DNA from: Salminus brasiliensis
Taxonomy: Eukaryota; Chordata; Actinopteri; Characiformes; Bryconidae
DNA: 64,000 nt
NCBI RefSeq assembly: GCF_030463535.1
Contig: NC_132900.1
Location: 32,546,516-32,610,515 of the forward strand
Direction of reading: 5' to 3'
Every line of letters begins with the position of its first letter. Position 1 is the stretch's first letter. Positions 1 to 64,000 of the stretch are shown here, one piece after another. The translations under genes and the position numbers were made by a program. Below the pieces are notes generated by a model. It saw only the letters and a program-made list of their open reading frames with translations. It had not been told where the DNA came from and searched no databases.

Positions 1-2877
1 ACCACTAACCTCTAATCATACGGAGCTCCTGACATCATCATCATCATCATCATCATCATCTAAACACAGAAATCACAGATCTGATCTCTGTTCCCCTGAT
101 CAGACTCACCGTGATCTCTGGTCTAATCTTTGCTCATCAGTGTCGACTTGACTAGACTGAACTACTGAACTACTGAAATATTTACTTAAAATAACTGAAC
201 TGATTTTCATGTTGAGGTTTAATCGTGTTACTGTATTTATATGTGTCCATCATACATGTTCAGAATAAAATAATAACGTTAGGATTATTCCCAAAGGAAC
301 TCAATATTTAGTCAATAATTGCCTGGAAATTATGCAAATGATGCAAATGATGCAAATGTAAATTCAGTGCACCACAGAGTGAAAAGGGGAACAACATCCT
401 CCTCTGGTTAAAACCAGACCACAAAACAAGAACCAAACAACAGCAATGAGAACAAAGAATGGAGAAATGATGGATGCTTATGACCAACAGAACCCAACTG
501 TACCTGATACTGGGGTACTGGAAATAACCGATTCTCCGCTTCAGTCAGGTACGATCCAAATCTCATAGGCCTGTCCTTGTGACCCTGACCTGGTTTTCAA
601 GACTGTGTACTGGAACAGGGAGGTCAGTACTAAAACACAGCCTTGATCAGAAGATACTAAAGGAGCTTATTGATTTAATTAGTGCTGCACTGTTCTGAGA
701 CCAGGCCTAAATCCTGAAAATGTGCGGGACTGTTGAGCCACAGCTTCCTCCAAGATCTGAGATAGTGACACACATAAACTACACGGCAGATTAGAGACGT
801 AAACATCTTTATTTAAAATAGTGAATTACATTAAAGATCAGGGCCGAAGTTGATGAAGTGTTTCTGAGGATTTAACTGCAGTCTATCATCATCATCACCT
901 CTACAGTTTAGCTCAGGTCACGTAGTTCTGCAGTTTATTATCTGAGTGGAATTAAACCAACGTTAGTAACGTCTAGAGAAGCAGCAGCTGACTGATGCAG
1001 TGACCAGGGTCGAGACGTAGCGCTGCAGTTTTAGCTGTGGTCCAGTGGTGCACCCAGTCATACATATTAAGCTCCATACCTGCATGCTTGACAGAAATAT
1101 GCAGACGGCAGGGGACAGTTATGAAAGTATGTACTCTAACAAAGTGCAGCACTGAACTTTAAATAACCTAAAGCTTCTGCAAGAGCTGATCACACACTGT
1201 ATTCCCCACGGCCCTTTAACCTGCCTATCATTTAGTTAAGGAACCTTTTTAAGTCTGTAGAACCTGTGAGACGGCTGCTGGTGTTATCTGATGTTATTCT
1301 GTATGTCTTATAATAGAGGTGCATGGTGTTTGGGCTGCATGTAAGGCGGGCCGCTCTGACCCAGCGTGCAGAAGTAAGCTGTAATGGATGATTTGGACGG
1401 CTCAGTCCCAGGACACTTCAGCCAGCTGAGCGGCAGAGAGCATGCAGCTAGTCTAGAAATGCTTGTGAAGGAAGGTGAAAATACTGTGAGGCCTCATGTG
1501 TGACACTACCTCCATATTAGTACCAGGAGGTCAGGCTCAGGTGACTGAAGGAGAAAGACACTCCAGTTGGGTCCGCAGCAGGAACAACAGTGAGTATTCA
1601 GTCAGATGATCTCTTCAGGTTAGGACTAAAAATGATTTGACAGGACAAGACCAGCACTAGGAATTACACACTGAGGTAGAGGAAACCCATGAGCAGAAAG
1701 AGTCTGGTCATGATGGGACCTTCCCAAGAGGTTTAAAAAGGTGAGCTGACCTACAGAGGCTGGAGCCGATCTACATGTTTGTGTCTACTGCAAAAAAACC
1801 TTCTAATGACAAACACAAGAAAGAAAGACGCTTATCTGTGTAGTGTTTATTTCCCATTCTGCTGTTCATCTAAGGCATTACCTCAGGGAGAATACAACAG
1901 CAGTATTCTTAAAGTAATGCTGCAGGTTGCACAGAATACGCCATACAGATACAGAACATGCCAAGAGAAACTGAAAATGTGGGGCTTTAATGAGCAGCCG
2001 TCTCACAGCGGCGACTGGTGTTTTATATATATTACTGTAGGAATACAGGAAGGCCTTAATAGAAGAACTTTAAAAGCAAATCAGTGATATAAAAGGATGA
2101 GACTCCGTGCATCCCCTCAGTTCTAGCTTTCATACCACTGTAAGCATTCACACACATTAATGCCAACAGCTGTGAAAAAGCACATTCAGCTCCTCAATCA
2201 GGTTAGTAAACAGCTGCATGTGCAAAAGAAACTATTTCACCTGGGACTGACACTAAGCACAACCAATCATGAAAAACAAAAAGCTGATTGAATGACAGCT
2301 GATGTTAAAATCATTTTCATAATTAGGTTTAATTACAGTGAACGATTCGGGATCAGTGGAGTAAATGGTTCTGTATCTGCTGTCCTTTGCCTCTCCGTAC
2401 TCTGTGAGGTTTAGTACAGTTCACAGCGTAGATGGTGTCTATTGCTAACAGCTCTGGGCCTGCTTTCCCTACAGAGTCGTCAGACGATGGTTCTGAGATA
2501 CTAGGAATGCACAACGTAGAGCTTTGATTGGATTCATCTGGTTACAGAGATGTACTAAAATGAATGATGGTGTCATTTTAGCTCAGCGCTGCCAAACTTC
2601 TCCAAACCTCAATGACCACGTCATCAATCACTGGTTAAAATGATCCAATAAATCGCAGCACTGGACCAGCGGCGATTCTGATCCGACTGCCTTCTCCATG
2701 TGCATCCCTAGAGAACACCTCTATCTTCCTCAATATCTTTAGGAAATCAAGCCTCAAAGTCAAAGTAATGGTGTACAAACTTCACTAACAGAGAGAGAGA
2801 AGGGGAAACAGTAGACCCAAAAAGCCACATGACCACTGGCGGAGCCGTATGGGCAGTCCCTGACTTCATGGTGATGG
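1..2877. other. Gene-free 3' flank of sirt2
   Basis: I recognise no coding gene here; the short open frames have no family resemblance. A (CAT)n run lies at about 33-60. This stretch is directly downstream of the sirt2 stop codon on the minus strand, so part of it should be sirt2 3' UTR. A minus-strand AATAAA near 809-814 is one possible poly(A) signal, about 2 kb past the stop; I cannot say whether it is used. Confidence 0.5.
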
Positions 2878-8528
<5,651 letters not shown>

Positions 8529-9811: not shown

Positions 9812-13188
<3,377 letters not shown>

Positions 13189-29592: not shown

Positions 29593-44300
<14,708 letters not shown>

Positions 44301-56370: not shown

Positions 56371-59300
56371 ATGAGCCTCTCAGTGCATGAGCTGCTCCTC
56401 TGCTGCCGGGGGTTAGAGAATGATAAGGCCACAGAACGGAAGGTATTGGTTTACTGATTTCTCTGCTCCAAACAGTGGAGTGATAAACATGAGCTGTCTA
56501 GTTTAGTGAAGCTCAGACTGACACCCCTGCACTTTTCGTATTGATCTATTAATCTGAAAGAACCCGAAGAAAGATTACTGATCATTGAACGCTCCATTAC
56601 AGAAAGAGATTGATCGCTTCAAGAGGCTTCTTCGAGACCCTGAGACGGTCAGGGAACTCGACCGTACTTCTTGTAGAACCTCTAGGAACAACACCCAGCT
56701 CACTTGGGACGCTGTGTTCAGGTTAGCAGTAATGATACTGGTCAGCTGTCAGTTCTGCACAATCTGTCTGTCTGTCAGATAAAGTCCTGATGTGTTCTTT
56801 TCTAAATGACTTGACTCCAGGTTCTTGAAGAAATACCTTCAGAAGGAGACGGAGCTCCTGCAGTCCAGCAAAGCCAATGTGTCGGCCACCACGCAAGCGA
56901 ACCGGCGGAAAAAGATGCAGGAGATCAGCAGCCTGATCAAATACTTTGTGCGATGTGCCAACAAACGTGAGGCTTGAGTTTCTTCAGTTTTCAAGACGTG
57001 TGTTCCTGTAAAGAGCTTCTGTTTCAGAGAACAGAAATCTGCCCGTGATCTGTTGCAGAACCTGATCGTATTTGTTGGCCTGTTTTTTCATACTCTACAG
57101 TTTTTTTTCCTATTCTACAGTTTCTGTTGGTATTCATGTGGCTGTATCCTGGTTTTCCTTCAGGAGGTCCGAAGCTGAAGTGCGCAGATCTCCTGGCTCA
57201 TGTGGTGGAGGTTCTACAGAGCTCCTTCAGCTGTGCTGCTTATGGAGAAGATTATAGCAGCATGCTGCTGAAGAACATCCTCTCCGTCCGCAAGTACTGG
57301 TGTGAGATCTCCCAACAACAGTGGCACAGTGAGTGCGCCGAGTCATGGTTTCTTTCAGACACACACACACAAACGTACAGTGAACTCTGTAATGATTGGA
57401 TAGACAGTTTTTGCTCTACAGCTAACATTATTTATTTTTTATTTTAAGTGAATTTGGTGAAAATGAACTTGTGAATAAAGGAAAGATTACATTTATATTA
57501 TTTAAGAAGACCCAGTGTGTCTTCTTAAATAAATAAAAAATAAACATTTAATTATTTTTTTAAAATAATAATAAAAGATAAAAATACATTAAAATTCATA
57601 TTTCTGCATCTGAAGGTAACTTTGGAAATGATGTAGCTTTATGTGGTTTAAGCCTTTCTATTAGCTTCTCCATTTCTGATGTTGTCTAGGCCTGTTGGAG
57701 TTGTATTGTGGACTCTTCACTGGGTCCTCTAAGCCCATCAACCGGGTTCTAGTCAGCAGAATTATCCACACTGTGGTTCAAGGATGTTGTCTTCAAACCG
57801 AGGGATTAACACACACACTCTTCAACTTCTTCTCAGCAGCTCTGAGTAACACCAGGTACTGAAGCGGCGTTTTAACTTTTTTAAAATTGTTTTTATTGTG
57901 ATAAATTTTAGTATCTTCAGTATTTCTGCAGGGGTTATAAGGTCACATTTAAACTCCAGTTCTTCATAATTTCATTTATTTATGTGTTTTCTTTATGTTT
58001 TGTTTGCATTTTTCACTTTTTTCAATGTAGCTGCTTTTTTTGTTTTGGATGTTCAGAAGTTCTCGATTGAACATTTATAAACTCAAGTGAAAGTGTTAGT
58101 TTAGGGTTAGAGCTAAGGTCTGCAGGGTGTCTGTGATCCAGGACCAGGATGGAGAAGCCCTGCATTGTGCCGTTACCCTGACCAGAAACGTGTGGGCTTT
58201 TCACAGGGAGGAGAGGCAGCTGACTGTGCTGGAGCACCTGATCTCCGCACTGAATGTGTTCCTGCGCTCGGTGGCCATAAATTGTAGGAGACGGGTGTGT
58301 AGACTGGGAGAGGAGCTGCTGCCCTCTATTCTTTATGTGTGGAGCCAAAAGAGACCCAGTTCCACTCTGAAGGAGGAGATGGTGGAGTTCTTTAACTTGC
58401 AGATGTGTGTTCATCATCCTAAAGGAGCCAAGACCCTGGAGACGGGTAATGATGCTGCTGAATAATATCTTGATGAGATGCGGAGTTTGTTGGTGTTGAA
58501 TAGAGTTTGACATTTTTGTAGTTAACGCCACAAATACTGAGACCATGAGAAGCAAAACCACTGATCACCAGCCGTGCGCTTTAGTATAACGAAGAACAGT
58601 GCCACAGCACGTTCTGAAGCAGGGGTCAAGTGGCTGCAGGTCTTTTTTCCAGTCAGGCTGAAGAACAGTTGGTTGATCAGACAGATGATCAGTCGCAGTT
58701 TTTAAACTGTTCTTTCTCATTGGTAATGGAAGCCTGCAGCTGCGCTGGCCCTCTCTGAATAAGATCCCTGAGACTAGAGTGTTCATGTCGCTATTTAGCT
58801 TCGTGAAGGCCTTTCTCGTTAACTGCTGAATTAAAGCTCTGTATTGTGCTCTGAAGTCTGCAGTGATGTGATGTGTCTCTTGTCTGTGCTGGTGCAGGTG
58901 CTCATGCAGAAGACTGGTCAAAATGGCAGAGTCTCCTCTACAACCTCTATGATGCTCTAGTAAGTGAGATTAATCAGATCGGCAGTCGAGGAAAGTACGC
59001 CACAGGAGCTCGTCACATTGCCGTTAAAGAAAACCTTGTTGAGCTGACTGCGGACATTTGCCACCAGGTGAGCAGTGGCTTCCCCATCTCAGTCCCGCAC
59101 CTCCAGTGCCACACGAATCCACCACTGTGTCAAATTCAGTGAAGCACCTTGTGACTCTTCATACAGGTGGAAAGTTGTGTTCAGTCAGCAGGGTGGTCTT
59201 TACCGCTGTCGGTGGGTTTAGTGCCATGTGTTAAGACTGTATCTCTAACTGTTTCCAGCTGTTCAGTCAGGACTTGCACATTGTGGAGGTACGAGGCCTA

Positions 59301-60029
59301 CAGAGAGACAGCCCGCAGAGCAGCAAGCGCAGACGCGTGGAGCTGGGGTGGGAGGTCCTCAGAGACCGTCTGCAGCCCCATCACAGTGACTTTGACATGA
59401 TTCCATGGTAACGTTTCAAAATGAGACGATGAGACTTTTGGTTTTGAGGGGGAACAGGGGTGTTGAATTCGACTCCCGGGGTGAGGCCTAAAGACATCGC
59501 TCTCTGCAAACATGTTGACCCCAAGCTTCAGGTTCCGTCCCTGAATTCCTCTGTCTTCTGCGTCCGTAGGCTACAGGTGACTGCTGCTCTGACCTCCAGG
59601 TACCCCTCCATGCTTCCAGCTCATGAGCTGCTTCCTCTGCTCTCCCTGCTGTGTCAGCTGCTGGGTGAGCAGCAGCGGCGTGGAGAGAGGGGACCCTATG
59701 TGCTCCGTTGTCTGAAGCAGGTGGCCCTCTGCCAGGCCGCTAGCTCCGGAAGCTCTGAGACTCAACAGGGTGAGCTCGACCGGCTGTGGAGCAGAGTGTG
59801 GGCCATGGGCGTGCGGGGGGTCAGCTCAGCTCAGACTGAGGGCCTCTGTCTGGAGCTTCTGCGCACCATGGTGCAGTGTTCTCTAGTTCCTGTGGATAGA
59901 GAGTTCTGGAAGCTCTTCTCTGCTGCTGTCTGCAAGCCTTCCATGTGGGTCCTTTTGTTGGCACCATTTTCCTTCATCACATTTGGATATAAGTCATTTT
60001 AAAATCCAGTCTGGAACTGGAGGAACTGT

Positions 60030-60080
<51 letters not shown>

Positions 60081-63000
60081 GACGAGTAGGCAATAAGAAA
60101 CACTTTTGGATTTTCTTTTTCTTTTTTAAAGTTAAGTGGATTTTGATTATAGAGATTATTGATCATATTCTGTTTTAACATTTAAGACTCAGTTCTGTCA
60201 TTAGATTCATTTAAAAAATCATCTTCACATTTGTTTGTTGGTGTTTAGTAAAATTTGATTTGTTAACATTAAAGTGTTTTCCTGCTTTGCTCTCTTCTGT
60301 TGTCCTCCAGTCTTTCTACCCTCAGCCTTGCGCAGGCCTTGAGTAAGTGCTCAGTCCCCAAGAGTTTGCACAACAGCAAGCTTTCCTCGCCTCTGCTGCT
60401 CGAGGCTGGAAGACCTCAGTGTCTGAAGGAGAGCATCATCGACTGGCTTCTGATGAACGAACAGAGTGATGATGTAGAGGATGTCAGGCATCACCCTGCC
60501 ATCTGCAGGTCCATACTTCTAACTTCACCCTGAAATGATTAATTATGAGCAGTTTGTACTGAGAGCTTTCTTCTTTCTGGTTGAGATGAAACTCATGAAC
60601 AGCTGAGACCCCTTAAACCCTAGGTTTATGTGGGAACAGTTTGGTTTACCTTGTGGAGTCCCACAGGGTTCTAATGTAGGACCCATTCAACTGATGTTAA
60701 ATATGCAGTTACAAGAGTGAAGAACTGAAGTGTACATACAACCCCTTCATTTCTGTAGTCCACCTCCTCGAAACACCACATTATTGTAAAACAACATTCA
60801 TTTATAGGATTTTGTCATTTGTGGTGTGTGGGGTTTTGTTTATTGTTTATTTATTTACTTTTTTTGTCTTTGTTAGAGATTTCCCACTAAACCTTATTCC
60901 AAGAATTCTTGTGGCTTTGACCCTGAAGGACACCATGGGAGGAATGGTATTTTTGATGGACTCTCTTCAGCTTCAGTGGTGAGTGTTTCTTTTTATCAGT
61001 GCAGGACAACATGTAGTGGTCTTTGACTTCTTTGGTCCTATTACTCTGTATATAAAGATTTAAGACCAGGTGTGATCCAGTTCAATACAGTCAAGACTTT
61101 GACCTTTTCTCTTTGGTCTGTTCTCCAGCCTCTGTCCTCCAGAGCAGCCAGTAGCAGCAGAGTCGAAAAGGATCTTGCGTGAAATCGAGGCTCTTTACCT
61201 GCAGTTCAGTTTTGATGACCCGGCCTCCCTCACTGCGATCAGAGCAGGCAGGACCTGCAGGAGAACGGCTCACGGTCCATCGGTGCTCTGAAGACTCGTC
61301 TGGAGCAGAGCCTTCTGTCTGTCGCAGACCACCTGCTGAACTCCTACTCTCCTGATGTGAGTTGAGTAAAATGACATTTTTTAATATTTAACACAGATCC
61401 AGCAAAACTGCTGAATAAGAGACTGGATTTCAGAACCCAAAGCTGTTAATGATATAAATAAAGATATATTATAGTAATTTCTGTTTGATAAAGAATTTGA
61501 AACTGGTAGCTGTATTTAACTGTGTCCTTGCTTCCTGTAGGCTGATGAGAGTGTGTTTAAAAGTATTTCAGATTTTAAATAAATAAATTTAATTAAAAGA
61601 TTTCTTTATTTATATTTTTAAATGATGAATCTGTTATTGATTTCTATACTACCCAATCATTCAATAAAACTTTGTTCAAACATAAAGTTTCCAAAGAAGG
61701 TTTAAAGACTGAGGCACTAATATATGATGCGTTAGCCTGAGACAGCCAGCGTTCCCCAAGGCAGTCCGGATAGGTCTGATTCTGCATGCGGTTGATATAG
61801 CTCCTCTTCTTCTGGACTTCTGGACAAAGCCTACTCCATCACATATTGTTGTCCAATGTGTTTGATTGAGTTCTGCTTCTATCCAATCAAAACAGTACTT
61901 TTAGTTGACATACCCACATCCAAATCTGCTTCGATGGCATTTTAAAAAATCTGCTCACATCCTCAAACCTAAGATATCGACATGCTCTTGCCAAGCACTC
62001 GCCTCTCTTTCACCCCCGGTTGCTCGTGCAATTTTTAAATGCTTTTATATAAATCTATCAGAATTTCTGCTTCTCTGTGTAAGGCTGATTGATTCTGTGT
62101 TGGTTTCCGTAGAGCTCGGTCACTCCTCCTGCATACATGGTGCACTGTTTAGGGCTGCTTACTGGAGTCCTGGGTGCCTTTGTCTGTGCTGGAGTGGTCA
62201 CTGAGGAAGATGCCGCCCATAGCTCTCTGTTTCACAAAGCAAGGTAAGACCAGCTCAAACCGCCAGCGTCCTCCTCTACCTCTGCCTTATCTGTGCTGTT
62301 GGAGTCGAGTAAAGGGTAACTTCACTGCCTTCTGCTTGGCAGACTGGGGTTTAACTCCACACCTGGGTAAACAAAAATAAACTATTCGTTTTGCTCCCTC
62401 TTCTACATTCAGAAATGCCTTCAAAAATCTCCAGAAGTTTCATCACTGGAACTCTGTTGTGTGTCGCAGGGTTCTGCGATGATTTTTAAAGCTTTCTCCA
62501 TTACTTGCAGGCTTTAGCCCAGGACTTCACGAGTATGTGTCCTCTGCTAAGAGCAGGTTTTCTGAGGATGAGACTCTTTCCACTCTTAAATCTGTGACGC
62601 TGTTATGCTCAGGAAGTATTACCATGAGCATTAAGGTAAAGCTCAAATATCACTTTTATAACAATATCAAAATCAGTATGTTGTTAATTCTAAAGAGGAG
62701 GGGCTTAAAAAGTCTGTTTCTCTCTGGCAGGACAGCGTCTCTACCGTTTCTCGCAGTTTGTTCATAAAGGCTTTACCTGGTAGGCTTCTCACGAACTGTC
62801 GGACATATGCAAGCTCATGGTAAGTCACTGCAGGTAGGTTTGATTGAGTTTAGGGCTGCAGCATTTATTTAATTATGCCTGTTGTTTGATAATAAATATA
62901 ATTGATGTTAATTAACCTCCTCGATTAAATATATTCCATATGTAAGTAGCAGCGTGCACGTCTGTAAATTTCACAACTCGTATTAGTTGTATTTCCTGTG

Positions 63001-64000
63001 TGATAGTGTGTGTATAGAGAATGTTAATGTGTGTATAGTGTATATTTTGTTTAGAATTTTATTCTGAGCTATGCTGGTGTTAAAATGCTGTTTAATGGCT
63101 TGGATATGATGACGGCTTTAATAGTGCTGTCACACTGCTCACCTTAAAGGATCAGAATCAGATGCTGGTTGTAGATTCTGTTGCAGAGTTATGGAAGGGA
63201 GTGAACGTGTTCCTCTTAAACCTACAATAGAAGTCGTTCAGGTCGTCAGCCGGGAGGGGGGGGTATTCCGTAATTACCGTGTTGAAGACCTCTCCACACT
63301 GATCAGGGACGTTGGCTGAGAGCTGATTTTTGGTGTTCCTGGCCTTTTTATACAGATTCCTGTCTGCATTTCTGTAGGCCTCTGCTTTAGTCTGATGTAG
63401 ACTTAGTTCAGTTGTGAACCAGGGCTTAATTACTGCATGCATGTGCAGAAGTCCTGGTTGCCACACACAGTCTCTCACCAAAGCTGATGTAAGAGTGTCA
63501 CAGTGTCAGTCAGTACCTCCAGGTTGTCCGCAGCAGTCCCGTCGCGTGTTTTGTTGATGTATGGATTTGCTGCTCTCTGTAGCTGAATAACTCTGGGAGA
63601 AGAGAGAGTGAGAGTGATCCCACTGATGACCCTGGAGATGACCAGAACCACCCCACCTAAACAGAGGAGAACCCTCAGGAGGACTTTGATCTGCTTGGTG
63701 ATAGTGAAGAGCTCATCACAGCACAACGGAACACAGAAGCCTAACGGGGACTCCGCTGATTTCCAGCAGGGCTTAGGTAAGTGTTCTACTCTCAGATTAC
63801 AGATGTGATGATTTCAGAAATCCGTTATCTTTAATATTCAGTGTCGAGTTCAGATTCAGGATTCTGTGGGATATTTGAATGATTCAGATTTTCTTATTTT
63901 AATTTTGTTTTTATTAATATTAAATTAATATTCGTTACTAAAATGTTAAACATGTTTATTTAGAAGCGAAGAGTTCTCTCTCCTCGGACCTGCTGACCGA
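56371..64000 (+). CDS. atm: ATM serine/threonine kinase, 5' part (runs off the window)
   Basis: ATM is the PI3K-like kinase that signals DNA double-strand breaks. Coding exons: 56371-56442, 56603-56721, 56821-56966, 57164-57328, 57690-57855, 58207-58445, 58898-59067, 59259-59407, 59570-59944, 60311-60508, 60877-60978; these eleven join in phase to about 634 codons. The start [20 protein letters not shown], then [56 protein letters not shown], NEIxHIGSRGKY-like [11 protein letters not shown] and VDREFWKLF match vertebrate ATM. Further exons: 61129-61356, 62113-62243, 62511-62635 (or from 62518), 62731-62819, a doubtful one at 63665-63776, and one from 63964. From 61.2 kb on the frame is broken in several exons (see findings). 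Only N-terminal helical repeats are encoded; the kinase domain lies beyond the window. Confidence 0.93.
60031..60076. repeat. (CA)n microsatellite in atm intron 9
   Basis: About 22 uninterrupted CA units, 87 bp after the exon 9 donor. Confidence 0.95.
63150..63600 (-). mobile_element. Fragment of a non-LTR retrotransposon (L2/CR1/Jockey-like)
   Basis: Minus-strand translation gives, with frame breaks, [30 protein letters not shown] and LNDFYCRF, typical of the linker between endonuclease and reverse transcriptase in fish LINE polyproteins. No catalytic domain is present. It sits in the atm intron after exon 15 and its edge comes close to the next coding segment. Confidence 0.75.

Follow-up and report, generated by a model that had tools for sequence, protein, structure and literature searches.

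The atm locus and its neighbours

The window analysed here, a stretch of 64,000 nucleotides from Salminus brasiliensis (C27:32546516-32610515), contains sirt2, dmac2, nop53 and, at its right-hand end, the beginning of an atm gene. The first-pass annotation of this DNA had counted 34 coding exons of the three neighbouring genes as free of frame breaks; those of their exons that could be matched by tblastn contain no intra-exon change of frame; weakly conserved parts (e.g. DMAC2 residues 1-98) went unmatched. A minus-strand frame of 310 residues at 29593-30525, which we take to be connexin-like, is a further coding stretch of the window that runs without interruption.

The atm gene lies on the plus strand. 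Its coding exons 1-11 (56371..60978; 11 exons, 1,901 nt) are all in frame, as had been claimed, and join to give 633 stop-free residues that match human ATM (Protein Data Bank) from residue 1 and in which Pfam detects the TAN domain (PF11640). Five exons with disturbed frames follow: exon 12 (61129..61356), exon 13 (62113..62243), exon 14 (62511..62635), exon 15 (62731..62819) and exon 16 (63583..63776), all on the plus strand. The initial 37 nt of exon 17 (63964..64000, plus strand) close the window, the exon being truncated where a run of N begins (C27:32610516). These 37 nt resemble human ATM in two frames as we read them by eye (SEEF.. and ..LSSDLL), such that exon 17 may be broken too, a piece of this length being too short for judgement.

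Intron 15 contains a fragment at 63161-63536 that we assume to be an L2-like LINE, with an uninterrupted open frame of 115 codons on the minus strand (63158-63505) in which Pfam gives no match. Among the 40 of 134 candidate relatives that were scored, identity is 72-76% over most of the length and 80-84% in two short pieces. The relatives at 72-76% include five copies on contig C20 (28.54-28.58 Mb) spaced about 10.8 kb apart, a regularity that suggests a tandem array, with others on contig C6 (16.1-17.5 Mb).

Frame breaks in exons 12-16

We compared each atm exon with its human counterpart in a frame-aware manner, using presumed human ATM exon boundaries, and hence lengths and phases. Variant names in one ATM paper (c.2250, c.496+5, c.2639-22, c.5763-1050; PMC10371869) are consistent with these edges. 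By this comparison the lengths of exons 12-16 break the frame in five of five cases. On rebuilding the gene we recovered the coordinates and lengths that the first-pass annotation had given for these exons (228, 131, 125, 89 and 194 nt), and what it had said about their frames was borne out. Specifically, exon 12 (228 nt versus 226 in human) had been described as shifting frame at about 61241-61255, and we place the change just after 61246, where ATM-family-like peptide resumes in another frame while the old frame terminates at the stop 61289-61291. Exon 15 (89 nt versus 90) is one base short, with its frame change at about 62789-62796, again as proposed. Exon 13 (131 nt versus 126) amounts to whole codons minus one base and exon 14 (125 nt versus 126) is likewise out of step, but the suggested inner acceptor of exon 14 (AG at 62516-62517), 7 nt into the exon, does keep the frame across the pair (131 + 118 = 249 nt); depending on whether it is used, exons 13 and 14 may represent two breaks or none. 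Exon 16 (194 nt versus 172) had been reported to hold conflicting frames, and it does: all three frames contain stops, including an in-frame TAA at 63658-63660, a frame change follows further on, and in one frame the sole stop is the second codon.

Despite these breaks the AG and GT splice sites of all five exons are intact, and their peptides align with human ATM across the breaks. At the least, three exons (12, 15 and 16) are certainly broken. Exons 12-15 are compatible with a doublet having lost one base at each break. Exon 16 is at odds with one single-base loss, as it would need two losses or one added base, and has its in-frame TAA besides.

Outside the cluster the agreement is complete. 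Modulo 3, exon length agrees with human for all 11 exons that precede the cluster, for none of the five inside it, and for all 44 internal exons that follow, the latter lying on another contig (see below). The 55 outside exons are internal or first exons, the terminal exon 62 and the 37-nt piece of exon 17 being left out of the count, and the comparison covers 8,859 nt, of which 767 nt are in exons 12-16 and 8,092 nt elsewhere. By simple arithmetic, random placement of five broken exons among 60 would produce a cluster of this kind (five of five inside, none of 55 outside) with a probability of about 2e-7.

The N run and the remainder of atm

The N run occupies C27:32610516-32652172 (41,657 N), starting at the base right after the window; the 5 kb upstream of the window contain no N. 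Beyond it the contig continues for exactly 140,000 bases to the end of C27, a number that may perhaps reflect a round cut made in scaffolding, or an N run that is not a gap. The far edge of the run opens in GA, TA and GT microsatellites, and no atm exons were found in the 34 kb read downstream of it. Near the other end of this tail, the last 5 kb of C27 include 26 copies of TTAGGG, and positions 1901-3060 of that piece consist of degenerate TTAGGG-like tracts alternating with a repeated unit; the terminal bases are not clean telomere.

The missing part of the gene lies elsewhere in the assembly. When human ATM from about residue 1046 was searched against the whole genome (1,066,335,885 bases in 103 contigs), 29 matches were returned: 26 on contig C78, two on C12 and one at 765 kb on C27, the last three being weaker than those on C78 and presumably other kinases of the ATM-related family. 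C78, which is unplaced, measures 34,645 bases, less than the N run, and carries atm on its minus strand. In gene orientation it opens with (TC)13, directly followed by exon 18, and exons 18-23 lie cleanly within its first 2.1 kb, such that its gap-side end is free of breaks. Its 45 exons (18-62) join to encode 2,123 stop-free residues, which match human ATM 947-3056 over their entire length and contain GLGDRHIQNILI and HIDLG. In drawing the edges of these exons we required an AG..GT stretch to be open when read in the entry phase of the human exon and left the exit phase free, a procedure that biases towards agreement on the entry side, and the edges of four of the 45 (exons 18, 20, 37 and 42) were re-chosen by eye ahead of the exon test. 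The product scores 2,760 bits against human ATM, as compared with at most 455 bits against Tel1, ATR, mTOR, SMG1 and DNA-PK chains. With a TAN domain at its N-terminus and kinase and FATC regions at its C-terminus, the gene is, as judged from its predicted protein, an ATM-type PIKK kinase.

On the minus strand of C78, the intron that separates exons 47 and 48 harbours an incomplete second copy of atm exon 41 and of the intron preceding it (12862-13023 versus 10451-10612 of the reverse complement, 154 of 162 nt identical). The copy retains the acceptor but stops after base 57 of the 103 in the exon.

The fish gene resembles human ATM (PDB 6k9k and others) in the protein sequence that corresponds to human residues 1-862 and 947-3056, and, by the presumed human boundaries, in the phases and lengths modulo 3 of 55 exons; it differs in that exons 12-16 as assembled break the frame and exon 17 is absent but for its 37 nt. 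Comparison of C78 with the last 14 kb of the window and with 34,343 bases that follow the N run revealed no overlap except one 51-nt repeat match. The simplest reading, and a very likely one, is that C78 fits into the gap in C27, and that the assembly lacks no more than the greater part of exon 17 and adjacent sequence.

Origin of the breaks

The first-pass annotation had left two alternatives: that polishing was poor at this end of the assembly, or that this allele of atm is damaged. We strongly favour the former over the latter because the window ends at an N run and the rest of atm is intact on an unplaced contig, and we consider it very probable that the breaks in exons 12-16 are errors of assembly or consensus and that the gene itself is sound. 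The affected sequence directly adjoins the N run, and the short indels are confined to it, none of the five exons inside and all 55 outside being clean. The suspected low-quality stretch (60979..64000) would measure about 2.8-3.0 kb, its left edge falling somewhere between 60978, the clean end of exon 11, and the first break at about 61247. Short indels that occur only in the final 2.75 kb ahead of a gap have the look of unpolished or raw-read sequence.

It is plausible that such a stretch arose as follows. The N run would be an assembly gap that cuts atm within exon 17, and read depth may have fallen around a GA/TC-rich intron 17, leaving a contig end, or an extension of raw reads into the gap, that rested on few reads. 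A thinly covered end of this kind would probably have escaped polishing and thus retained its short indels, atm itself being an ordinary, functional gene. There are precedents. The VGP paper describes short indels as the commonest errors of its CLR contigs and a cause of frameshifts, and presents a TLK1 locus that was left unpolished for want of mapped reads and so kept frameshift errors (PMC8081667). As far as the legend to Extended Data Fig. 11a of that paper describes it, TLK1 in the Anna's hummingbird assembly resembles our case in that short indels, clustered locally, disrupt the frame of a conserved gene that is intact elsewhere, but differs in that there the other haplotype had attracted the polishing reads, whereas the fish stretch adjoins an N run. 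With regard to base composition, a passage on the human T2T assembly reports that HiFi coverage was lacking at GA-rich sequence (PMC9186530).

Several observations count against this reading. A repeat copy at 61664-62005 has no private one-base deletions in 332 nt when set against seven other copies (seven of the 39 other genome matches, blastn with default settings), against an expectation of about two at the rate seen in the coding exons (Poisson P about 0.11); the comparison has low power and lends the artefact no support. Intron 15 holds the uninterrupted frame noted above, the clean gap-side end of C78 demonstrates that sequence ends in this region are not always noisy, and the loss of single bases does not account for the TAA of exon 16. 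The profile of homopolymer lengths at 61-64 kb showed nothing unusual, 3 kb being too little sequence for such a profile. None of these points is strong, yet they lend no support to an error rate that is even throughout the stretch.

Three points would speak for a pseudogene or null allele in which exons 12-16 have decayed: the breaks are present in the assembled sequence, the TAA of exon 16 goes beyond any single one-base loss, and the repeat within the zone has no excess of deletions. We nevertheless regard this second alternative of the first-pass annotation as very unlikely. Several disabling lesions need a long time of neutral drift, so the other 8,092 nt of tested coding sequence would have been hit as well, and they were not: all 55 other tested exons keep the frame, and 44 of these follow the breaks. 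Were the changes random, five would all fall within 767 of 8,859 nt with a probability of about 5e-6, and the three sure ones with about 6e-4 (simple arithmetic). A unitary pseudogene is rejected on the same evidence, as the lesions are not spread over the gene and an open frame of 2,123 residues persists downstream. A non-functional duplicate is rejected as well, for no intact parent copy was found elsewhere in the genome: genome searches with exons 1-11 and with exons 12-16 returned 11 and six matches, respectively, all in the window's own gene, and thus no second atm copy. A very young null haplotype, created by a single clustered mutation event that produced several one-base deletions and a stop in exons 12-16 and left the rest untouched, is extremely improbable in our estimation. 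Among the papers listed by a literature search, none has a title on atm loss in fish.

Splicing might instead rescue the gene, the breaks being an illusion of annotation if the frame is kept in vivo by the acceptor inside exon 14, by very small introns or by exon skipping. Use of the acceptor at 62516-62517 does preserve the frame from exon 13 into exon 14, and an inner acceptor in exon 16 could make use of the one frame that is open past its second codon. Exons 12 and 15, however, shift in mid-peptide with alignment to human ATM on both sides, so that mending them would cost aligned residues, and the open frame of exon 16 appears by eye unlike the acidic ATM segment encoded in its other frame. 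With the frame changes sitting inside aligned peptide we reject this explanation, to which we would grant a barely appreciable chance.

The remaining question concerns the form that an assembly artefact would take, and its probability is a share of that reading rather than an addition to the alternatives. The N run might hide sequence instead of marking a gap, with C78 an alternate-haplotype contig and the breaks local consensus errors within a continuous contig; in its favour, the run starts just where the window stops, and precisely 140,000 bases of contig follow it. Against this, the far edge of the run lies in microsatellite and resembles a contig end, C78 lacks exon 17, opens in (TC)13 at exon 18 and is shorter than the run, and N are absent from the 5 kb before the window, all of which leaves this version unlikely. 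Even if the N run is not a gap, an intact 3' half of atm exists in the genome.

We thus see in exons 12-16 no new biological feature and, most likely, an artefact of assembly. The assembly alone already narrows the question: one can locate the gap, find the missing half of the gene on an unplaced contig and check its frame, and in doing so a placement is suggested for that contig, C78. As the sequence stands, automatic annotation may label atm as broken or report two partial genes in its place, and surveys of DNA-repair gene loss could count Salminus brasiliensis as a case of atm loss, a false report against which the present observation guards.
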